Made by a program: the position numbers and the translations under genes. The notes under the pieces were generated by a model that had not been told where the DNA came from, ran no database searches, and saw only the letters and a list, made by a program, of their open reading frames with translations. DNA of 64,000 bases from Vallitalea guaymasensis. GTDB taxonomy: Bacteria; Bacillota; Clostridia; Lachnospirales; Vallitaleaceae. Location of the stretch: NCBI RefSeq assembly GCF_018141425.1, contig NZ_CP058561.1, positions 1,550,001 to 1,614,000 on the forward strand. The letters run 5' to 3'. Shown here piece by piece: positions 3,022 to 61,211 of the stretch (the stretch's first letter is position 1; every line of letters starts with the position of its first letter).

Positions 3022-5130
3022 ATGTTGGATACTAAAAATTATTTTGGAACTGAGGATTTCAAGGGCTATTGGCATGAGAATAAAAAGATTATATATAATA
3101 AACGTCCAAAAGAAAGCTGGCAATGTATGCCTATCGGTACCGGTAAAACTGGAGCTGTAGTTTTTGTACCTGATGAAGGAATATGCTTACAGATAAACCA
3201 TGGCGGGAGCTTTGATAGTGATGGTAATCTTCCTGCTCTACTTAGGGTCAACCTAGAGATAGATGGTAAGCCATTTGTTGATGCAAAGAACTACAAACAA
3301 ATATTATCATTAGAAAAGGGTATGGTGACTATATGTGCTGATACACCTGATGGAATAGTGAAAGCCGAATTCATAGCTCATCAAGAATTGGATGTTATCT
3401 CTATCTATATAGAAGATATGAGAAATAATCATGGTGAAGTAAGTATATGTCCTCTATTTTGGAGGCAAGGTGTTTCACAAACTTTTATAGATAATATGAT
3501 GTTTTATACAGAAACCAACATCTGCTCTTCTTTTAATGAAATCAACTTCCAATCTGGTGTGATGAATAACAATTTATCAGACCCATTGAAAGATTTGTCT
3601 TATGGTACAGCAGTATGGGTAGATAAAGCTGATTCAAATAATTTACCTATGAAAAGAGTTATGTCAAGGAAAGCAAGAATATTGATTGCCGCAGATTCGG
3701 GCAAGTATTCAAAAGATACTTTAGTCAAGACTTTGAAAAATAAGATAGATAGGGCTTCAACTATTTCCTTAGATAAGTTTAGAAATTCTCATTTCAACTG
3801 GTGGAAAAATTTCTGGGCTAGAAGTGAATTTGAACTGAAAAAAGATTCAAAGCTACAGCCTGTCAGAGCAATTTGGCACTTAAACCGTTACTTTACTGCA
3901 TCATCCATGGCAGGTCAATTGCCCCCAAAATTTAATGGTTCAATTTTCCTATATGATTATGACCGAAGACACTGGGGAGGAGCTTATTGGTTCCAAAATA
4001 CACGACTTCAATACTGGCCTTTATTCAAATGTGGTGATTTAGACTATATCATGCCCTTTTTTGATATGTACATAAATGCTTTGGAATATGCCAAGGAAAG
4101 AACACTTTCATTATATGGGCATAAAGGAGCTATATATCTGGAAACCATGCATTCTTGGGGTGGAAGCCGAATTGGAGATAGTAGAAATGGTAAAGGAGTT
4201 GTAAATAATTATATCAAAAATTATTTTACAGGCTCGTTAGAGTTATTAATGATGATGCTTGAATATTACCGCTATACACAAGACAGCTCTTTTGTTACTA
4301 ATAAAATGTTACCAGTAGCTGATGAAATAATACTTTTCTTCTTTACTCATTTTCCTATTAGGGATGGAAAATTGTTCTTGGAAAAATCTGCTGCTCTAGA
4401 AACGTGGTGGGAAGCAGATAATCCTAGTGATCAAATTGCAGGATTAAGAGCAGTTATTCCTAAACTGATTAATACAGCTATTAAGCATGGATATGACAAC
4501 TCGACAATTAATAGATGGAAAAACTATCTTGAGTTATTACCTGAACTACCTAGAGGTGCAAACTGGTTCAATAAGATTGTTAAAAAATATAATTATCAAG
4601 GATATGATGGTACTTGGAGAAAACCAGAAACAGGTAATGCACTGATGCCTGCCGAAAACGTTCATCATCTTAATAAGAGAAACTATGAAGACCCTGAATT
4701 ATATGCTCTTTGGCCTTTCGGTCTTTTTGGTAAATCTTTACCTGATTATTCTTCTGCTCTGCTTACATTTAATAATCGTATTCATGAAGAACCTTCTAAT
4801 GGATGGTCACAGACTGCTGTCTGGGCTGCACGTTTGGGACTTGCAGATGAAACCTCTAAGCTGTTGTTGAAGCAGTACAGATATGCATCTGTATTTCCTG
4901 GTGGGATGATGTTCTCACCTGGTAATATAGTTCCTCATAGACCTGATATACCTGAATGTGGCTATTTTGATACTATTGGTGTGATGACTACTGCAATTAA
5001 TGAAATGCTTTTACAAGACTATACAGACCAATCAGAGATATTACCTGCTTGGCCGAAAGATGAATTTGTTTATTTCAAGCTTCATTCTAAATCTGGAAAA
5101 GTAGTTGAAAAAACTTACAATCCCAAATAA
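3022..5130 (+). CDS. GH95/DUF5703-like glycoside hydrolase, cytoplasmic
   Basis: The 702-residue protein has no signal peptide. Near residue 36 it carries MPIGTGKTGAVVF, matching the N-terminal beta-sandwich motif (MPIGNG-x-GA) of GH95 and DUF5703 proteins. From about residue 280 it has an (alpha/alpha)6-type catalytic region with the aromatic-rich segment DYDRRHWGGAYWFQNTRLQY. The start has a good ribosome binding site, ACGAGGTG, just upstream of ATG. GH95 members are alpha-L-fucosidases or alpha-L-galactosidases; DUF5703 proteins are less well characterised, so substrate is uncertain. Location in the cytoplasm suggests it trims imported oligosaccharides. An L-fucose isomerase elsewhere in the window makes fucose a reasonable but unproven product. 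Confidence 0.65.
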   Translation: MLDTKNYFGTEDFKGYWHENKKIIYNKRPKESWQCMPIGTGKTGAVVFVPDEGICLQINHGGSFDSDGNLPALLRVNLEIDGKPFVDAKNYKQILSLEKGMVTICADTPDGIVKAEFIAHQELDVISIYIEDMRNNHGEVSICPLFWRQGVSQTFIDNMMFYTETNICSSFNEINFQSGVMNNNLSDPLKDLSYGTAVWVDKADSNNLPMKRVMSRKARILIAADSGKYSKDTLVKTLKNKIDRASTISLDKFRNSHFNWWKNFWARSEFELKKDSKLQPVRAIWHLNRYFTASSMAGQLPPKFNGSIFLYDYDRRHWGGAYWFQNTRLQYWPLFKCGDLDYIMPFFDMYINALEYAKERTLSLYGHKGAIYLETMHSWGGSRIGDSRNGKGVVNNYIKNYFTGSLELLMMMLEYYRYTQDSSFVTNKMLPVADEIILFFFTHFPIRDGKLFLEKSAALETWWEADNPSDQIAGLRAVIPKLINTAIKHGYDNSTINRWKNYLELLPELPRGANWFNKIVKKYNYQGYDGTWRKPETGNALMPAENVHHLNKRNYEDPELYALWPFGLFGKSLPDYSSALLTFNNRIHEEPSNGWSQTAVWAARLGLADETSKLLLKQYRYASVFPGGMMFSPGNIVPHRPDIPECGYFDTIGVMTTAINEMLLQDYTDQSEILPAWPKDEFVYFKLHSKSGKVVEKTYNPK

Positions 5131-36684: not shown

Positions 36685-36978
36685 CTATACATATATGATA
36701 TCTGAATAATTATCTTCTTCCATGCCATATAGTCTGCCTCTGCCTCTTCCTCTATATGGTCTGTAATAAGGTCTTCCATAATAGTAAGGTCTTCCATAAT
36801 AGTAAGGTCTTCCATAGTAATAAGGTCTTCTATAATATGGATATCTTACATAATAGGGGTTTCTTCTATAATAGTAGGGATATCTCCTGTATGAATATGG
36901 ATAATACCTAGGGTATCTGTATCGGTAAGGACGTCTGCCTCTGCCGAATCTGGTAGCTTCAATTTCTTCGTTAAACAT
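36685..36978 (-). CDS. Tyr/Arg/Pro-rich repeat protein, unrecognised
   Basis: The 97-residue protein is dominated by Tyr, Arg, Pro and Gly. Its centre contains tandem six-residue GRPYYY units (about residues 46-72), encoded by 18-bp DNA repeats at 36770-36841. It then has an RGRGRGR stretch and an acidic tail. There is no signal peptide or membrane segment. The low complexity suggests a structural or nucleic-acid-binding role. Tyr-rich spore coat proteins of clostridia look broadly similar, but this link is a guess. AGAAGGA precedes the ATG and a terminator follows, so it is probably a real monocistronic gene. Confidence 0.65.
   Translation of the reverse strand: MFNEEIEATRFGRGRRPYRYRYPRYYPYSYRRYPYYYRRNPYYVRYPYYRRPYYYGRPYYYGRPYYYGRPYYRPYRGRGRGRLYGMEEDNYSDIIYV
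36770..36841 (-). repeat. Tandem 18-bp coding repeat
   Basis: GGTCTTCCATAATAGTAA occurs as two identical head-to-tail units (36770-36787, 36788-36805). Two diverged units follow to 36841. They encode the GRPYYY units of the Tyr/Arg-rich protein, and their number may vary between strains. Confidence 0.85.
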
Positions 36979-41902: not shown

Positions 41903-43240
41903 TCACCTTATCAAAAATATTAAATCCCAATCTGTATCCTGTTCCTGTATCAATCCTATTAATACTGTAAATACTCCAGCTGCTCCATCTAGTAATCCAG
42001 CTATATCCTGCTTATCTGAAGATTCTTTTTCCTGATATCCATAAAGCTCTTCTGGATTCCATAAATTCAGTACTTGTTCTAATAACTTATCCCGTAATTC
42101 TCCAATAATTTTATCTCCACTTTCAGAGTACATTCTCTGTACCATTTGAAGTAATCCTGCTCTCCCGTGACAAAATGTATCAGATTCTATATTCCATTTA
42201 CTCTTTGGTCTCATGGCAGTCCCTCTGAATGTTTCTAGTGCCACACTCTTCCATTCTTCGTTGTTAACTGCAATGCCGCTTAACCAAAGTGCACGTGCAA
42301 TTCCAGGACCTCCATAGCACCAAGCTTCTCTTGGAACAACATTTCTTGATTTACCTTTCTTATTCTCTTCCCATGAGATTCTAGCTGGCCAAAGTGGTCC
42401 ATATTCATCATTTTCTTTCCACTTTATAATCCAGTTAGCAATCTTATGTATAGCTTCACGCTGACCAGATACTTCTACTCCCTTCATCAAAGCTATGGAC
42501 ATCAAAGCAAGAACACCAGGTATACCATGTGACATTCCACAGTTGAAGTGACCATTGGGATATTCTTTACTATCATATCCAGTACATCTATCAGACGATA
42601 CATACCAGCCAGGTACAACTAATCCTTTATGCTCTTTATCTGCACATAACTTCACCAGATATTCAAGAATCTGTTCCATTGCCAGTCTCATCTCTTTTTC
42701 CTCTATGAAACAAAGTACATAGCGCCCAATACCGCTCAACCCTTGAATAACATCAAACTCTTTTAGAGAAATACCTTGTTTTAGTCTTGATTCCATATAC
42801 TGCATCATACTAGGAAATGACTTTATGAAAAATGAATTCAATTCTTTTATGAAGGTCTCATATCTGGTTCCATCTCGTGATAATGCTCTTGCTGCTATTA
42901 TTACACCACCAATACCAGTCCAAAGACTAAATTCTCTGATCCCCTCTTTCATGATTACTCTCTGTATCTTTTGTAAGTAGGGATGTCCAATACTATCCCA
43001 TCCCCCTTGGGGATACGCCCTATCCAAAGCTCCAAACATCACACAAAAACCACTATACCCTCTAGCTAAATCAATAGGTGACCAAGGTATGTAATCTTTT
43101 CCAGATTCTTTACGTATGTTAATTAATTCAAGCATATCCTTTTGAATCTGCTCTGGATTAACTAATCTATGTGCTCCATCATCAACAATCCGTTGTATCT
43201 TATTACGAATTTCTTCATCTGTCACCTGAGACCATTTCAT
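41903..43240 (-). CDS. lanC: LanC lanthipeptide cyclase
   Basis: The 445-residue enzyme catalyses addition of Cys thiols to dehydrated Ser/Thr, forming thioether rings. The family's zinc ligands are present: Cys308 in AWCYGGPG, and Cys357 with His358 in FCHGRAG. The active-site His238 lies in NCGMSHGIPG. The start at 43240 follows AGGAGG by 9 nt; a 21-residue upstream extension in frame is unsupported. It is the last gene of the operon and overlaps the transporter gene by 26 nt. All key residues are intact, so the enzyme should be functional. Confidence 0.95.
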   Translation of the reverse strand: MKWSQVTDEEIRNKIQRIVDDGAHRLVNPEQIQKDMLELINIRKESGKDYIPWSPIDLARGYSGFCVMFGALDRAYPQGGWDSIGHPYLQKIQRVIMKEGIREFSLWTGIGGVIIAARALSRDGTRYETFIKELNSFFIKSFPSMMQYMESRLKQGISLKEFDVIQGLSGIGRYVLCFIEEKEMRLAMEQILEYLVKLCADKEHKGLVVPGWYVSSDRCTGYDSKEYPNGHFNCGMSHGIPGVLALMSIALMKGVEVSGQREAIHKIANWIIKWKENDEYGPLWPARISWEENKKGKSRNVVPREAWCYGGPGIARALWLSGIAVNNEEWKSVALETFRGTAMRPKSKWNIESDTFCHGRAGLLQMVQRMYSESGDKIIGELRDKLLEQVLNLWNPEELYGYQEKESSDKQDIAGLLDGAAGVFTVLIGLIQEQDTDWDLIFLIR

Positions 43241-45077
43241 ATTGTACTTCCTCCTTATCATTATCACTATATGCAGATAGCTGCATTTTATATAGATAAG
43301 CATACATACTGTCTTTTTTCATCAATTCAATATGGCTTCCTTGTTCAACAACCTCTCCCTGATCCATCATGATTATATGGTCTGCATACTTTATTGAGGT
43401 ATATCGATGTGAAATGAATATACCTATATGCTGGTGAATCAGTTCTCTGAATTTCTCAAACACTTGGAGTTCAGATTCTGGGTCTAACATGGAACTAGGT
43501 TCATCAAGTATATACAAATCAGCCTTACGCATAAATGCACGGGCAATCGCAACCCTCTGCCATTGTCCTCCAGATAATTGACTACCCTGATCGAACAACC
43601 TTCCAATCTGGGTATCCAATCCATGTGGTAACTGATCTACCAAATCATCTATTCCAGCTCTTCTTGCTGATTCTAACAATTCGTCATCACGTTCAAGTCT
43701 ATTGACATTACCAAATCCTATGTTGTGCCTCATATTAAGTTCATACTGAACAAAGTCCTGACAAACTACAGCCATATGATTGCGTAATGCTTCTTGATTA
43801 AATGAACGTATGGATATTCCATTAATAAGGATGTCACCTTTGAAATCATCATATAATCCAGTTAATATCTTCATGAGTGTAGTTTTACCTGAACCGTTTC
43901 GTCCAACGATTGCCATTGTTTCTCCACGCTTCAACTTGAAACTTACATTATTAAGAGCATATCTATTAGTATCTGGATACATGAAAGATACATTTTTAAA
44001 CTCAACGGTCTCAATTTCCATTATATCAGTACGTTTACCTTTATCATTCTTACTGACTTTCAAGTCCAAGAATATAAATAGCTGTTTTAGAAAAAGGTTA
44101 TGTTGACATAATGAAAGTATCCCAGATATAAGTGCTTGTGAGTTACTCTGTGTCATAGTTATAGTCTGAGTCAATGCCACTACAGTTCCGATTTCTATCT
44201 CCCTAAGAAATGCAGACCTAAGTACAACTACCATCATTAATACGTTAGCAATAACGTTAATAACTTGAAATATAATTCCTGTACTCAACCTTTTTTTGGC
44301 AATTTTCTTATCTTCTTTATAGAAGCTTTTGAATAGACCATTGTAACATCTTTGAAGATATTTCCCTAGTTGATACAGTTTCACTTCTTTGAAGTTCTTA
44401 TCGTTTGTCATTAGATAAGAATAATACCACGCCTTCCTCATCTTAGGTATACGATTATACTGTACTAGAAACTCTTGCTGTCCTATACGAAGAAAAGAAT
44501 AAAATGATGTAAATGGTATAATAAGCAATATAAAAGCCATCCACCATCTGAAAATTATCAGCATTCCTGCCGCAGAGATAAGTGTTACAATACCGCTTAT
44601 TAATGACATCATCTGCTGCATAATCTGATATGGACGATGACCTGCTTCATTTTGAGCAAGCTTCAAAGCATCTTGAACTTCCGAGTTCTCAAAATCCTTC
44701 AATGATAATGATACTGATTTTTCCATTATTAGCTTATTTATTCTATTCATCAAAAGGACTTTGAATAAGCTCTCTATATAACTCTGAATCAGATTCAGCA
44801 ACTGACTTAACAGTGTAAATGCAACTAGTATGGCAAATGCCTTAAGGATTACATTAAAGCCTTCGGTCCATGAATAAGTAATGGAGTTAATCAAGTCTTT
44901 GGTCAATATCAAAACAATGATTGGTGAAATACCATGAAATAGATTCAAAATCATTATTGCAATCAAACTTTTTGCATCTGTAGCCCATAACAGCCCCATG
45001 ATACGAGGCCAATACCTAAACGATTTTAATATATTAGCTATAGACATTACACTTGAATCCTCTCTATCTACCGCCAT
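43215..45077 (-). CDS. lanT: Lanthipeptide ABC exporter without peptidase domain
   Basis: The protein of about 620 residues has six N-terminal transmembrane helices (about 30-320). A C-terminal ATPase domain follows: Walker A VGRNGSGKTT, signature QLSGGQWQRVAIARAF, Walker B LYILDEPSSMLDP. There is no N-terminal C39 peptidase domain, as in NisT/SpaT, so it exports the modified peptide with the leader still attached. The start at 45077 was chosen because AGGAGGTG lies 6-7 nt upstream; a GTG three codons earlier overlaps that site. It starts 5 nt after the lanB stop region and overlaps lanC. Export of the LanA peptide is inferred from the operon. Confidence 0.92.
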   Translation of the reverse strand: MAVDREDSSVMSIANILKSFRYWPRIMGLLWATDAKSLIAIMILNLFHGISPIIVLILTKDLINSITYSWTEGFNVILKAFAILVAFTLLSQLLNLIQSYIESLFKVLLMNRINKLIMEKSVSLSLKDFENSEVQDALKLAQNEAGHRPYQIMQQMMSLISGIVTLISAAGMLIIFRWWMAFILLIIPFTSFYSFLRIGQQEFLVQYNRIPKMRKAWYYSYLMTNDKNFKEVKLYQLGKYLQRCYNGLFKSFYKEDKKIAKKRLSTGIIFQVINVIANVLMMVVVLRSAFLREIEIGTVVALTQTITMTQSNSQALISGILSLCQHNLFLKQLFIFLDLKVSKNDKGKRTDIMEIETVEFKNVSFMYPDTNRYALNNVSFKLKRGETMAIVGRNGSGKTTLMKILTGLYDDFKGDILINGISIRSFNQEALRNHMAVVCQDFVQYELNMRHNIGFGNVNRLERDDELLESARRAGIDDLVDQLPHGLDTQIGRLFDQGSQLSGGQWQRVAIARAFMRKADLYILDEPSSMLDPESELQVFEKFRELIHQHIGIFISHRYTSIKYADHIIMMDQGEVVEQGSHIELMKKDSMYAYLYKMQLSAYSDNDKEEVQYEMVSGDR

Positions 45078-45082
45078 TATGT

Positions 45083-48000
45083 TCACCTCCTGCGAATGTA
45101 TACTAAATTGTGTAGCGTATGACGTACCAAAGTAAGTACTCTCGTTTCATCACCTCTATCAATACCGTATAATCTGTTTATATGAAGATGGATTATACTA
45201 TGCATTGCATCAATGGATTTAACATAATAATCTCCACTAAGCTCTTTCTTAGATAATTGTTCTCCATAATAATTCAATGTATTACTTCTTGCCTGCAATG
45301 CTGGTAATAAGAATTGTCCTGCTTCATGTCTCCTAAGCTCTGCAAATCCATCTCTTGTATCGCCTAATTTCATATACAGTGACCTCTTTGACCTAAATAG
45401 ATCAAGATAATTTTTATAGTTAACAATCTTATCCAAGAAAGCAAGTTGTTCTTCAAAAGTCAATCCAAATTGCTCCATGATATCAATAATACTTATAACT
45501 GCCAATAAATCTTTTTCTATAGGTAAAATACCTTGTTCATTTAATTTTATCCAATCCATTACAATTTTGCTGTCTATGCAAAACCACTGCTCTGCGATGT
45601 TTATTAATTCCCGACCACCATATCGTTCAATTTCAGGGTCATATGTATCAATAACCATACGTGAAAGCATACCTTCCTTCAAACAATTATTGGCAAAAAT
45701 ATTGAGTTGTGGTAAAAACTCACTTTGTAATTTCTTAGGTTCACCAAAAAAACGTAACCTTATATGTCCATCAGGGTCAGCATATCTCATATAGAAACTA
45801 GACCCAATCCAACCATTCTGCTCTGCTTTATAACAGAATTCTCTTAATCGACCTCCCAAAAATTCCTCTATACGATTCCAGGCTCCATACCATTTAACAT
45901 ACATCCATTCACTTCCTGGGAGCTTAAAACGTTCAGCAAGGTCAATTGGTTTATACTGCCTTTTAGGTATTGATTCCCTATTTTTTATTGCAGGATTTCT
46001 AATGATTGGAAAAACAAATTCTGTATAATAACTACCCTCTTGACTTTTAGGAAGGGCTCCTAATTCATGCCCCAATTCAGTTAAAATAATTCCTTGCCCA
46101 AACCCAAGCTTAGCGAATTCTCTCCGTATTTCGTCAATATGCTCACTCTCATTCAAATCCAACAATAATCTATTATCTGTTTGAGTCAAGTAGACATACC
46201 TTGGAAGTCGCAATTCTTTTTTGTATGTATCAAATTTTTCTATCCATTCTTCTTTATTCATATTATCTTCAATAGGGAATGTTTCCTTATTAATAATCCA
46301 TCTAGCAGGGGATAAAATACAACGTCCATATTTTATACGAGGCAAAAATGGCAATGAATTAAATTCTCCCCAATGTAAATTTTCAATATTCCTCTGCCTC
46401 TCCATAGACAATTCTCTAAGGAATCTATAGACATTAGGTGAATTAGATCCATTGAACATATGATTAACTACAGTTATAACCTCTTTACCAAGTTTTAATG
46501 ACCTAAGATAGAATCCTCTCTTATCTATGCCAACCACCAAATCTGATAAAGGAATAATATTCTCTGGTTTCTTAGAAGATGTTGTCCCCATAACAATCTC
46601 GTAGTTACGATTATCATAGGTTAATACTACATTAGCTGCTCTGCCATCTATGGGTAAGTAAACCAATTCGGCTAATATTCCATCTGAACACATCTCTTGT
46701 TCTGATTTCCCAAATTTTTTTAGCTCATCTTGAAACTCAGAACCCATAATGTCAGTAAATCTCCCAATTGACCTTCCTGCACCATAGGAAAGGGCTGTTG
46801 CTCCACTTATAAGAGTATAATCTCCTGCTTCTACACTTTCTTTTGAATCAGCAGCCAATGAAAAAAAGAGTTCAAAAGAGCGAGGGGCATAGCGGCTGTC
46901 AACCTCTTCTCCTGCTAATTCTTCTATTTTCTCATCATCTAGAACAATTTCTTGTTCTCCCTTTAATAAGGTCATAGTTAACCATTGTGATAACAAATAC
47001 TTCTTCCGTTGCTGAAACTCAGTTCTATTTTCCTTTGGGTTTCTTTTGGAAGGTGGATATTCATATGTAGCTGGTGAACCTAATCCTATCTCTTCATCCA
47101 ATAACTCTAATAATGGAACCTCTCTTGATGATCCATATTTTTTTATGAAATCATTTCTGTATTCCAAGAAGTGTGATAATCCGTATTCATTATCACTGAT
47201 TTTCCACAGTACTTCTGCTGCTTTTTCCACTTCTTCTTTAATAGAAATGGGTAAGACTACTTCATCCTTTTGAATCTTAAGATCAACCTGTAGATAATTT
47301 TTACTTTCGGCTATTTTTTTCATCTTCTTAATTATGTTTCGATATAATTCTTCGCCTTCTCCTAATAGGGTTCTATCATACATATCTATCATGAAGGATA
47401 TTTCTTGTAACTGAGCTTTTAATTTATCTATCCCTTTTATATCTTCTATACGTTGTAATAGGTAATTTAATGGATTTGCCTCTATTAGAGGTGGACGTAA
47501 ATTGGAAATTAACAGCTCTTGTTTAAATAACTGATAAACAAATTGGTTTATTTGCTCGCGTGGCGTATCTGGATATTCAACATTTAACTTATTAACTAAT
47601 TCTTTGTAGGTCATAGGTTTCTCTGATAAGTTAAGGGCTTGTTTGACAGCGCTTGTAGTCCGTACTGATGTACGTTCCATTTCATTGCCTTTCCCCTTAG
47701 CCTGACCTAAATTCGTTAAGTATGGAAGGTATGTTCTATTACCCACTTTATAAGCCATAGTATTTGCCATTACTATTAGTTGCTTGATTAGGTTAGGGTC
47801 ATTCTCCATTTGTGCTATTATCTTGAATAACCAGTCCATATCAGGACGAGTACGCTTTTCATGATACTCAGTACTCCTTAATGCAACTTTGTAATAATCT
47901 CCGTACTCTCCATACGCCACTCCAGAAAATAAACCAAAAGGTGTTGGTCTAGTAGACATTCTTATCAAATAACGTAAAAAAGCTCTGGCAACTTGTTCTC

Positions 48001-48226
48001 TTTTACGGGATGGACTATCTGGTGAAAGGTTAGTTAGAGCATCCAGAAGTGATATACTCGAAACAGCTATTGCTTCTCTGATTAAGGGATCTTGTGTAAA
48101 TTCCCATAATTCATCTAAAATAGGTGCATTAAAGGATGTTAACTTATTTTCAAATACATTTGTAGATAGTATAGGCGTTCGTAATATAAAAAAATCAAGA
48201 CATTTGAATATACTCTGATTACTCAT
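45083..48226 (-). CDS. lanB: LanB lanthipeptide dehydratase, full length
   Basis: The 1047-residue enzyme dehydrates Ser and Thr using glutamyl-tRNA. The glutamylation domain includes RMSTRPTPFGLFSGVAYG at about residues 89-106 and runs to about 750. The C-terminal elimination (SpaB_C) domain begins near WMYVKWYGAWNRIEEFLGG and includes MRYADPDGHIRLRFFG. It is full length like NisB (about 990 residues), not split as in thiopeptide systems. AGGAGAT precedes the ATG. It lies 83 nt downstream of lanA with a strong hairpin between. It should install dehydroalanine and dehydrobutyrine in the repeated core of LanA. Confidence 0.96.
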   Translation of the reverse strand: MSNQSIFKCLDFFILRTPILSTNVFENKLTSFNAPILDELWEFTQDPLIREAIAVSSISLLDALTNLSPDSPSRKREQVARAFLRYLIRMSTRPTPFGLFSGVAYGEYGDYYKVALRSTEYHEKRTRPDMDWLFKIIAQMENDPNLIKQLIVMANTMAYKVGNRTYLPYLTNLGQAKGKGNEMERTSVRTTSAVKQALNLSEKPMTYKELVNKLNVEYPDTPREQINQFVYQLFKQELLISNLRPPLIEANPLNYLLQRIEDIKGIDKLKAQLQEISFMIDMYDRTLLGEGEELYRNIIKKMKKIAESKNYLQVDLKIQKDEVVLPISIKEEVEKAAEVLWKISDNEYGLSHFLEYRNDFIKKYGSSREVPLLELLDEEIGLGSPATYEYPPSKRNPKENRTEFQQRKKYLLSQWLTMTLLKGEQEIVLDDEKIEELAGEEVDSRYAPRSFELFFSLAADSKESVEAGDYTLISGATALSYGAGRSIGRFTDIMGSEFQDELKKFGKSEQEMCSDGILAELVYLPIDGRAANVVLTYDNRNYEIVMGTTSSKKPENIIPLSDLVVGIDKRGFYLRSLKLGKEVITVVNHMFNGSNSPNVYRFLRELSMERQRNIENLHWGEFNSLPFLPRIKYGRCILSPARWIINKETFPIEDNMNKEEWIEKFDTYKKELRLPRYVYLTQTDNRLLLDLNESEHIDEIRREFAKLGFGQGIILTELGHELGALPKSQEGSYYTEFVFPIIRNPAIKNRESIPKRQYKPIDLAERFKLPGSEWMYVKWYGAWNRIEEFLGGRLREFCYKAEQNGWIGSSFYMRYADPDGHIRLRFFGEPKKLQSEFLPQLNIFANNCLKEGMLSRMVIDTYDPEIERYGGRELINIAEQWFCIDSKIVMDWIKLNEQGILPIEKDLLAVISIIDIMEQFGLTFEEQLAFLDKIVNYKNYLDLFRSKRSLYMKLGDTRDGFAELRRHEAGQFLLPALQARSNTLNYYGEQLSKKELSGDYYVKSIDAMHSIIHLHINRLYGIDRGDETRVLTLVRHTLHNLVYIRRR

Positions 48227-48249
48227 TATTATCTCCTTTCATTCCATAT

Positions 48250-48288
48250 AAACATCAAAAAACATCACTAAGATGTTTTTTGATGTTT
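48250..48288 (-). promoter_or_regulatory. 17-bp perfect hairpin between lanA and lanB
   Basis: The 17-bp arms at 48250-48266 and 48272-48288 are perfectly complementary with a 5-nt loop. The hairpin starts about 21 nt after the lanA stop. The minus-strand tail has no long U-run, so it probably acts as a leaky terminator or mRNA stabiliser. That would give more precursor than enzyme, as in other lanthipeptide operons. Confidence 0.75.
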
Positions 48289-48309
48289 AATATTACTTTA
48301 CTCTATACA

Positions 48310-48501
48310 TTAACAACTTGAAGTATGAGTGTATCCACACATATTTTGACCAGTATAGCAGTCAGATGAATAACAAGTAGATGTATAGCAAGTAGATGTA
48401 TAACAAGATGATGTGTAACAAGTAGACGTATAAAGACCGTCTAATTCTGCACCATTAATTTTATCAACTTTAACTTCTAAATCAAATGGATTTTTTGCCA
48501 T
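48310..48501 (-). CDS. lanA: Class I lanthipeptide precursor with pentapeptide-repeat core
   Basis: The 63-residue peptide has a leader of about 22 residues with NPFDLEVKV, matching the FNLD-type box that LanB and LanC recognise. The core from residue 23 contains cysteines at 28, 33, 38, 43, 48, 55 and 63. Five consecutive units read (Y)TSTC, TSSC, TSTC, TSTC and SSDC, each separated by Tyr. Every one of these units has a Ser or Thr three residues before the Cys, suiting a ladder of small (methyl)lanthionine rings. The 19 Ser/Thr exceed the seven Cys, so several dehydrated residues may remain. GGGGG lies 7 nt before the ATG at 48501; the longer frame from 48519 is unsupported. I do not recognise this core. 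Confidence 0.92.
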   Translation of the reverse strand: MAKNPFDLEVKVDKINGAELDGLYTSTCYTSSCYTSTCYTSTCYSSDCYTGQNMCGYTHTSSC

Positions 48502-48604: not shown

Positions 48605-48633
48605 ATTATACATAGTATGATATTAAAAGTCAA
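48605..48633 (-). promoter_or_regulatory. lanA promoter
   Basis: On the minus strand TTGACT (48628-48633) and a perfect TATAAT (48605-48610) are 17 bp apart. The leader is about 100 nt. The rest of the 351-bp gap up to 48777 is AT-rich without a visible gene. Confidence 0.8.
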
Positions 48634-58986: not shown

Positions 58987-59601
58987 TTAACCTTCCTTTA
59001 TCTTGGTAAGTATATTGGAAATTACTAATTTACCTATAGTTTTCATTTCTTTTTCATTAAAGAAATCTGACTTAAGACTATTACAAAACCAACATGATTT
59101 TACTATATTATCTATCTGGTATCCTACACTATTATCAACTCTATCAATGGTAAAATCAGATATCTGTGCCTGATTACCCTTAGAAAAGAACTTCTTAAAT
59201 CTATATATTTCCCAATCATTACCTGTATAGTTTATAATATACTCTCTTATCTTGTTATATGTAATTTTATTAATACCACAGTAATAACAAGTATCACCAT
59301 TATTTTTCCACCAATTCGCCAAAGTTTTTTCATCTAGATTAAATGTTATACCTCTTTTCTGTGCACTATTTGACATATTACTTATGGCTCCCTTTCCAAA
59401 TTTAAAATATCCACTTTCATATTGTTTCATTTGGGCTTTTTTAACATTTTGTAGTCCTTTTTCTGTTTTATTATAACTTTTTGCTTTTTGTGCATTACAT
59501 TGTTTACAATATGAATGGAGACCATCTTTATTACGTTTATTTTTATGAAAATCAGATATATGTTTGTATTGACCGCATTTTGCACATTTTTTTAAATTCA
59601 T
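58987..59601 (-). CDS. HNH-family nuclease with N-terminal zinc ribbon
   Basis: The 204-residue protein starts with a zinc ribbon (CAKCGQYKHISDFHKN, then YCKQCNA). It has an HNH region at about residues 100-185: CYYCGINK, FTIDRVDNSVGYQIDN, then SCWFCNSLKSDF. The CxxC...DR.D...N...CxxCN..K pattern is that of phage and mobile-element HNH nucleases, with DR in place of DH. It may cut DNA as a defence or homing enzyme. AGGAGG lies 10 nt before the ATG. It heads a two-gene operon with the SLATT protein and diverges from the RT. Lys/Asn-rich codon use differs from genes to the left, suggesting transfer. Confidence 0.8.
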   Translation of the reverse strand: MNLKKCAKCGQYKHISDFHKNKRNKDGLHSYCKQCNAQKAKSYNKTEKGLQNVKKAQMKQYESGYFKFGKGAISNMSNSAQKRGITFNLDEKTLANWWKNNGDTCYYCGINKITYNKIREYIINYTGNDWEIYRFKKFFSKGNQAQISDFTIDRVDNSVGYQIDNIVKSCWFCNSLKSDFFNEKEMKTIGKLVISNILTKIKEG

Positions 59602-59834: not shown

Positions 59835-61211
59835 ATGAATTTTAATACATATTTCACAAAAAAGAATATAAATAAATCATATGAAGAAATAAAAAAAGGT
59901 AGGCTAACCACAGGTATAGATAGAATATCTAGAAGAAAGTTTGAGAAAAATAAGCAAGCCTATTTTGATATAATATATAGAAAAATAAACAATAATTCAT
60001 ATAAATTCACTAAATACAAGCAAATACTAGCAATTAAAGATGAGTACAATAAACCTCGTATTATATCTATTCCAACAATTCGTGATAAAATAGTATTGAA
60101 TATTATACGACAAATACTAGATGATACGTATAAAAATATTATCAGAAATGACTCGGTTAGTAATATAATAAAAAAAATAGCTATTGATATTAAAAATTAT
60201 GATTATTGCTTTACACTAGACATAAGTAATTTTTATGGTATGATTAATCATAATATTTTGATGCATAAATTAAGAAATAATACTAAAAGTAATAAGTTAC
60301 ATAATATTATTGATTTAGCTATTACAACTCAAACTGTTAATATTGAAGCATCTTCAAAAAAAGAGTTTGACCTTATTAATGATATCGGCATCCCCCAAGG
60401 TGTATCAATATCCAATCTTTTAGCCAACATATATCTTATGGATTTTGATGATAAACACTATAATCACACACAATACTCCTATTTTAGATATGTAGATGAC
60501 ATAATAGTTTTTTGCCATAAAAATAAAAGTAAAGCAATTAGACAAAAGATGATAAATGAGCTAACAAATAATCGTACTTATGCATTAAAGATTAATGCTA
60601 AGAAATGTACATATAATGAGATATTCAAAAATACATTCATAGAATTTTTAGGATATCGCATCTATTATAATAGTTGCATAAGTATAAAAGATATGAGTAT
60701 AAAAAAGTTCGAAAAATCCCTTGAAAAGATATTTCATGATTATATAAATTCTAAAGAAAAACATATTAAAGGAAACAAAGAATATTTAAAGTGGAAACTT
60801 AATTTAAAAATAACTGGATGTGTAAGAAATAATATTCAATATGGGTGGGTAAAGTATTATAAATTATGTGATAAGGATGAAGTGTTTTACAAACTTGACT
60901 GGTTAATTGTTAACTTAATAAAACGCTTTAAGCTCGGAAAGTTTTTACTTAGTGGGAATAATAAATATATAGGGAAAAAATTTTCAAAGACTTACTACGA
61001 GATTAAACATAATAACTCTTCACTAACAAATTCCAAATATATCCCAAACATTGATAACTACAGTATAGAAAAGAAATGTAATATTCTATCTAGTGTATGC
61101 AAGCGTAAAATTGACACTTGGTCACATAATCAAATTAACTATGAATTTGACAAGTTCATTTTTAAATCAATTAGAGAATTGGAACAAGATCTCCAAGGTA
61201 TTTATGGTTAA
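59835..61211 (+). CDS. Reverse transcriptase of a probable defence element
   Basis: The 458-residue protein has RT motifs: PRIISIPTIRDKIVLNII (about 74-91), FTLDISNFYGMINH (catalytic Asp near 129), GIPQGVSISNLLANIYL (185-201) and FRYVDDIIVF (YVDD at 219-222). A thumb-like segment ends at about 290. The remaining 170 residues do not resemble a maturase X or endonuclease domain, and no intron structure flanks the gene, so it is not a group II intron protein. It resembles retron, Abi or unknown-group RTs. GAGG precedes the ATG by 8-9 nt. With SLATT and HNH genes alongside, an antiviral role is the best inference. It is very rich in Asn, Lys and Ile. Confidence 0.85.
   Translation: MNFNTYFTKKNINKSYEEIKKGRLTTGIDRISRRKFEKNKQAYFDIIYRKINNNSYKFTKYKQILAIKDEYNKPRIISIPTIRDKIVLNIIRQILDDTYKNIIRNDSVSNIIKKIAIDIKNYDYCFTLDISNFYGMINHNILMHKLRNNTKSNKLHNIIDLAITTQTVNIEASSKKEFDLINDIGIPQGVSISNLLANIYLMDFDDKHYNHTQYSYFRYVDDIIVFCHKNKSKAIRQKMINELTNNRTYALKINAKKCTYNEIFKNTFIEFLGYRIYYNSCISIKDMSIKKFEKSLEKIFHDYINSKEKHIKGNKEYLKWKLNLKITGCVRNNIQYGWVKYYKLCDKDEVFYKLDWLIVNLIKRFKLGKFLLSGNNKYIGKKFSKTYYEIKHNNSSLTNSKYIPNIDNYSIEKKCNILSSVCKRKIDTWSHNQINYEFDKFIFKSIRELEQDLQGIYG

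Follow-up and report, generated by a model that had tools for sequence, protein, structure and literature searches.

The gene at the centre of this analysis, lanA, lies on the minus strand of the window, by which we mean the whole 64,000-nucleotide stretch of Vallitalea guaymasensis DNA under study. Its 192 bases (48310-48501) encode 63 residues (MAKNPFDLEVKVDKINGAELDGLYTSTCYTSSCYTSTCYTSTCYSSDCYTGQNMCGYTHTSSC). It is the first of four intact frames on that strand, being followed by lanB, lanT and lanC. The coordinates and frame given by the initial annotation were correct; the strand was absent from it and is supplied here. In the order of transcription the features are the following.

48605-48633, minus strand: sigma-70-like promoter TTGACT-17-TATAAT upstream of lanA, 11/12 in a consensus scan only, in a region where such sites show no excess (31 found versus 35.8 expected)
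48310-48501, minus strand: lanA, 63-aa lanthipeptide precursor of the elgicin/penisin family (ORF and NCBIfam NF033457 match)
48436-48501, minus strand: leader, residues 1-22, with an FDLE box at residues 6-9 (alignment A1; elgicin cleavage sites)
48358-48432, minus strand: five pentads YTSTC YTSSC YTSTC YTSTC YSSDC, residues 24-48 (five predicted four-residue thioether rings)
48313-48357, minus strand: tail YTGQNMC-GYTHTSSC, residues 49-63 (two further predicted rings, T50-C55 and T58-C63)
48249-48289, minus strand: 18-bp perfect hairpin between lanA and lanB, a probable partial terminator or attenuator
45083-48226, minus strand: lanB, lantibiotic dehydratase with both domains (PF04738, 641 bits; PF14028, 174 bits)
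43215-45086, minus strand: lanT, ABC transporter (PF00664 and PF00005 over cut-off)
41903-43303, minus strand: lanC, lanthionine cyclase (PF05147, 198 bits)

The sequence AAAGGGGG, likely the ribosome-binding sequence, sits 7 bases upstream of the lanA ATG (48501, minus strand). The translation confirms what had been described in the letters: five consecutive five-residue units ending in Cys, each with Ser/Thr three residues ahead of that Cys, and two further Cys at 55 and 63. The seven Cys occupy positions 28, 33, 38, 43, 48, 55 and 63, and the 41 residues from L23 onward contain 19 Ser/Thr. Repetition of the DNA in 15-bp steps, also reported before, is real (tandem repeat of period 15, 4.7 copies, score 98; repeat spacing 15, 15, 15). 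Five tandem x[ST]xxC units arose in 2 of 200,000 shuffles of the lanA core, and three tandem units in 1,883. Neither Pfam nor a PDB search returned a match for the precursor. Elsewhere in the window lie a 97-aa frame with a very high content of Tyr, Arg and Pro (36685-36978, minus strand; RPYYYGRPYYYG repeats), a 458-aa plus-strand frame (59835-61211) with a YFRYVDD motif that we take to resemble a reverse transcriptase and, near the latter, a presumably HNH-like frame (58987-59601).

lanA matches NCBIfam NF033457 (elgicin/penisin family lantibiotic) at 85.9 bits, the cut-off being 40, and the match runs end to end (lanA residues 1-63 on profile positions 1-64 of 64). Together with the adjoining LanB, LanC and ABC transporter it supports the class I lanthipeptide precursor recognised at first sight. 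Five pentads, an xTGxxxC plus GYT...C tail and seven Cys are common to lanA and the other NF033457 members (alignment A1 covers 13 of the 28 precursors compared below). The initial annotation set such a ladder of rings against the irregular patterns of the nisin, subtilin and epidermin types. The novelty implied fails, and the idea of a ring pattern new to science is rejected: the ladder is the hallmark of the elgicin/penisin family, to whose type the precursor belongs as judged from the NF033457 match, its length and leader, its mass range and the order of the genes. lanA is thus a well-formed new gene of a known lantibiotic family.

The neighbouring genes agree with this assignment. LanB, full length with both domains, matches four sequences of solved structures, two of them NisB. 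LanC aligns with the LanC-like structure 8byk and retains WCYG and CHG, motifs which we take to carry the zinc ligands. These features and the FDLE box are those of class I; against the class II LanM model LanC scores 72 bits, the cut-off being 304. In the 5.63 Mb genome the LANC_like domain occurs once, in a 471-aa frame, and the only LanB-domain and LanC-domain matches (E 0.001) are those of this cluster. No peptidase domain is present among the 19 Pfam matches of LanT. No protease gene was seen in the cluster; the genome has eight subtilase-domain stretches, each of them outside the window and none linked to the cluster, and four of the eight are reported in same-length frames at one place. 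No immunity genes were seen among the few neighbour frames scanned, and Rfam at gathering scores gave nothing over 41-50 kb.

The hairpin that separates lanA from lanB has an RNA fold z of -4.88, and none of 200 shuffles was equally stable in a shuffle test that concerns the window hairpin only. Minimum-energy folding gives, in 14/14 clusters, a stem about 14-18 bp long in the gap that follows the last lanA and precedes lanB, the stem sequence of Paenibacillus differing from that of Vallitalea plus Longirhabdus. A long stem after the first of two precursors was not seen in the three genomes folded there. The nisin cluster has an attenuator after its lanA, and by analogy the hairpin likely acts in the same manner, which would allow the peptide to be made in excess over its enzymes.

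The comparison set holds 28 precursors from 14 genomes: 4 from Vallitalea, 2 from Longirhabdus and 22 from the genus of P. tyrfis (L006 is the same contig as L038 and was left out of the counts). The genome samples behind it overlap, and those of class and phylum are thinly drawn. Among 59 near relatives, a sample that includes the genome itself, 4 passed the NF033457 cut-off; all belong to the genus of the window, in which 4 of 6 genomes carry the precursor. In the sample of the window's class 4 of 391 genomes match at E 0.001 and one, its own, is over cut-off; the figures for the phylum sample are 2 and 1 (again its own) of 398. Nine of 25 genomes are over cut-off in the genus of the P. tyrfis genome, the same nine being found among 104 in its family, while the Bacilli class sample has 13 of 398 matching at E 0.001 and 2 of 398 over cut-off, one of them judged unrelated. 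The closest named relative is a Vallitalea MAG whose precursor is 95% identical. Longirhabdus pacifica (Paenibacillaceae) has two precursors, the first of which (L007, 7732-7923) has Y, P, Y, H, Y, Y as linkers, the residues at position 1 of its units, while its neighbour is regular with Tyr throughout. L039 and L040 each have four precursors in tandem, namely a Tyr, a Phe and an Ile type and an irregular one with longer units.

Several weaker candidates were discarded. The match in G994 (L057), judged unrelated by eye, lies in a frame of 284 aa in which WTNRC/WMNRC pentads follow one another about 15 times; this frame probably arises spuriously from a DNA repeat, and no lan gene was found in the 3 kb examined. 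The weak matches L002 and L010-L012 are stop-broken or low-complexity frames. The stop-broken frame of L011 (genome G192, about 1501-1590) contains GRPMCGYT, which resembles the family tail; it is either a relic or chance, with no lan gene within the 3 kb examined. Sub-threshold Bacilli loci with a recognised precursor frame have FDLD-type leaders and no ladder, and in five of the 16 such loci the pattern found no precursor frame. One locus (L067, 3.1 kb, Bacilli genome G1070) packs nine short frames with FDLDVQV-type leaders into about 3 kb; these resemble class I lanthipeptide precursors but lack the ladder. No relative was found by tblastn in plasmids and phages or among the 6 pattern matches in viral contigs, and PHROGs gave only one match (E 0.082).

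The order A-B-T-C is found in 11/11 clusters with enough flank, window included. Longirhabdus LanB is 61-65% identical to that of Vallitalea and 46-47% identical to those of six Paenibacillus genomes, which belong to its own family. In the tree of the 11 clusters, unrooted and built with no outgroup, Paenibacillus is set off by a long, fully supported branch from Vallitalea plus Longirhabdus; the order inside the latter group has a support of only 41-60. In the simplest reading of these sequences, the cluster seems to have been transferred between Clostridia and Bacilli. Downstream of it the window and G005, a genome of the same genus, have in common an M24 peptidase gene and a second gene that is presumably hydroxylamine-reductase-like. 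Neither was found in the 16-18 kb around the clusters of G003 and G004, so that the cluster is probably located elsewhere in those genomes.

Five pentads plus tail fit 26 of the 28 precursors, a set picked by family model and first-look filter from which strongly altered relatives could be missing. The pattern demands five pentads, and the two precursors that do not fit (G844, G849) were therefore read separately: they are irregular, with longer units. Four or six regular pentads were seen in none of the 28. The expectation that repeat number would vary freely between relatives is thus rejected, and the comparison shows a ladder that is conserved rather than freely expandable. In the 22 distinct regular cores, position 2 of the unit is Ser/Thr in 110/110 units, position 3 in 88 and position 4 in 42; 22/22 cores, all with seven Cys, keep both the unit 6 Thr and the Thr of GYT. 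Among the four Vallitalea genomes (six pairs) the dN/dS of lanA is 0.06 to 0.21, values that suggest purifying selection.

Seven conserved donors and seven Cys fit seven rings, which is the number we infer for lanA; the purified relative elgicin is reported to lose 144 Da, or 8 waters (PMC3337247), which leaves one over, and is credited with seven bridges (PMC11251773). The ladder of equal-sized rings envisaged at the outset therefore keeps its support as a prediction. The accompanying figure of up to 19 water losses is no more than an upper limit, and the 8 waters of elgicin make full dehydration of the lanA product unlikely.

lanA is a conserved gene of the elgicin/penisin family at the head of a lan cluster, and we consider it very probable that the whole works accordingly as a class I lantibiotic system, in which the product of lanA is modified, exported, cleaved and antibacterial. 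In each unit LanB would dehydrate the Thr/Ser that stands at position 2, and LanC would couple it to the Cys three residues on, or five residues on in the last two units. The outcome would be five four-residue rings, all identical and each separated from the next by a single Tyr, together with two larger rings, for a loss of about 8 waters from the Vallitalea product. LanT would export the peptide and a protease encoded elsewhere would cut near residues 20-23, the range within which elgicin suggests the exact cleavage site to lie. The product is most likely a weak-to-moderate antibacterial peptide. The initial annotation suspected an activity other than antibiotic. This receives slight support from the inhibition zones of elgicin, which at 150 ug per disk measured just 7-9 mm for five strains and were absent for two (PMC3337247); their small size means that antibacterial action may not be the main role. 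A true lanthipeptide of the family might serve mainly as a signal, as a surface or biofilm peptide or as a partner of other peptides, its antibacterial activity being incidental. The published account of the elg cluster found no lanI or lanEFG (PMC3337247), and the block change of linkers between paralogs described below suggests a collective surface. Nevertheless, five of the seven tabulated strains were inhibited, the elgicins were isolated by antibacterial activity (PMC3337247) and penisin is described as antibacterial, and we hold a main role other than killing to be unlikely.

The linker residue gave the least expected result. The same residue stands at position 1 of the five pentads and of the sixth unit in 19 of the 22 distinct cores (the two irregular precursors, whose linkers are mixed or missing, were left out); column shuffles, which ignore kinship, gave a mean of 0.83 uniform cores and a maximum of 5 in 10,000 rounds. 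Linkers are non-uniform in three cores, two of them V-I-I-I-I-I and one, from Longirhabdus, Y-P-Y-H-Y-Y. Between paralogs the linker is Tyr, Phe or nearly all Ile. In the Tyr/Phe paralogs of seven of nine genomes and in two Phe-Ile pairs position 1 differs in all five pentads, while positions 2, 3 or 4 differ in 0 to 80% of the units and the Cys never. In a tree built without the linker codons the Tyr-type genes of Paenibacillus form, with weak support, a group separate from those of Phe and Ile type, and the Vallitalea and Longirhabdus genes join by a long branch, so there may have been only about two linker switches in Paenibacillus, each needing six changes.

Duplication or conversion of units at the DNA level could keep the repeat uniform and would deprive the block change of chemical meaning. 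The 15-bp repeats in lanA point in that direction, and growth of the core by duplication, as proposed initially, is plausible at its origin. The codons of 20 Paenibacillus genes tell otherwise for the later history. Third bases at positions 2-4, in codons matched in residue and first two bases, agree in 0.81 of 123 comparisons for the same unit across paralogs, versus 0.31 of 219 for different units within one gene and 0.35 of 225 for different units of paralogs. Residues at positions 3-4 agree in 0.69, 0.31 and 0.29 of these comparisons, respectively. Unit memory is absent from the Cys codon (0.75, 0.73, 0.72) and slight at the third base of codon 1 (0.62, 0.50, 0.41), values that favour conversion, and the near equality in Vallitalea plus Longirhabdus (third-base identity of 0.64 for the same unit between species versus 0.60 for different units) leaves room for it there. 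But since the Paenibacillus units keep their own codon histories while the linker still switches as a block, homogenisation of units is a poor explanation; nor is there a four- or six-pentad relative among the precursors compared. We judge it improbable. Our alternative, put forward tentatively and at somewhat less than even confidence, is that selection switches the six linkers jointly from one of Tyr, Phe and Ile to another, through independent point mutations and with no homogenisation of the repeats. The linkers would then make up an unbroken stacked face with cooperative binding to a target, a membrane or a partner peptide, and the side-by-side Paenibacillus paralogs would be a matched set. 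Testing what the ladder does can in any case draw on a natural series on one scaffold, the Tyr, Phe and Ile types. The block change is new as far as could be checked: no mention of it turned up in the literature searched, and pentad strings searched with the word lanthipeptide were unmatched, though sequences are often given only in figures.

A decayed, unexpressed relic is very improbable given the intact A, B, T and C frames, the dN/dS range given above and the seven retained Cys. An unmodified Cys-rich peptide that merely adjoins a lantibiotic cluster, its evenly spaced Cys being in themselves compatible with disulfides or metal binding, is barely credible and was rejected in view of the FDLE leader, the first place of lanA in a cluster of invariant arrangement, the Ser/Thr conserved ahead of each Cys and the waters lost by purified elgicin.

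Among known systems nisin is the class I archetype, with LanB, LanC and a separate transporter. The TxxC ring equals nisin ring B in size. The nisin rings are irregular, and the system has a dedicated protease, NisP, and immunity genes. Closer to lanA are elgicins AI, AII, B and C from Paenibacillus elgii B69, purified in 2012 by Teng et al. (PMC3337247). Their precursor ElgA is reported as 64 aa long, with an FDLD leader, several Tyr and cleavage between residues 20 and 24, and the elg gene order as T1, C, T2, B, A, with no lanP (PMC3337247). The likeness includes class I, leader (FDLD versus FDLE), length (64 versus 63 aa) and the order C-T2-B-A found in the window, while the frames that flank the Vallitalea cluster showed no counterpart of the second ABC transporter gene, elgT1. 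Ser/Thr number 19 in the Vallitalea core versus 13-14 in the Tyr-type Paenibacillus cores. Masses of the latter were computed from the residue matching L22 and compared with elgicin B at 4706: five of the seven distinct cores, which share the same start, come to 4693-4769 Da after the loss of 8 waters, and the other two, with a different start, to 4635 and 4717 Da. None of the precursors found has the Leu-Gly-Asn-Tyr start or the exact mass of elgicin, so ElgA itself is not among them, and the kinship of lanA with elgicin was judged on the NF033457 match, on gene order, on leader and length and on mass range rather than on the letters of ElgA.

Penisin, from Paenibacillus ehimensis A3 (PMC6163223, PMC7829367, PMC8358304), is named alongside elgicin in the NF033457 model matched by lanA. 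PenD and PenR are reported for its cluster (PMC6163223). A precursor of P. ehimensis NBRC 15659 is 70% identical to that of the window; this genome has two tandem precursors, one of Tyr and one of Phe type, in which it differs from the window. In Vallitalea guaymasensis L81, of the same genus and with a genome of 6.4 Mb in 7 contigs (5.63 Mb here), a cluster 6 was described in 2018 whose LanB, LanC and LanT were most penisin-like and for which, in that account, the precursor was not found (PMC6163223). The lanA of the window is probably the counterpart of that missing precursor gene. Vallitalea MAGs, and lanthipeptide clusters in fish-gut MAGs, are named in a further study (PMC11077953) without linking the two. 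A precursor of the kind reported missing is thus present in Vallitalea, and the elgicin/penisin family spans two bacterial classes.
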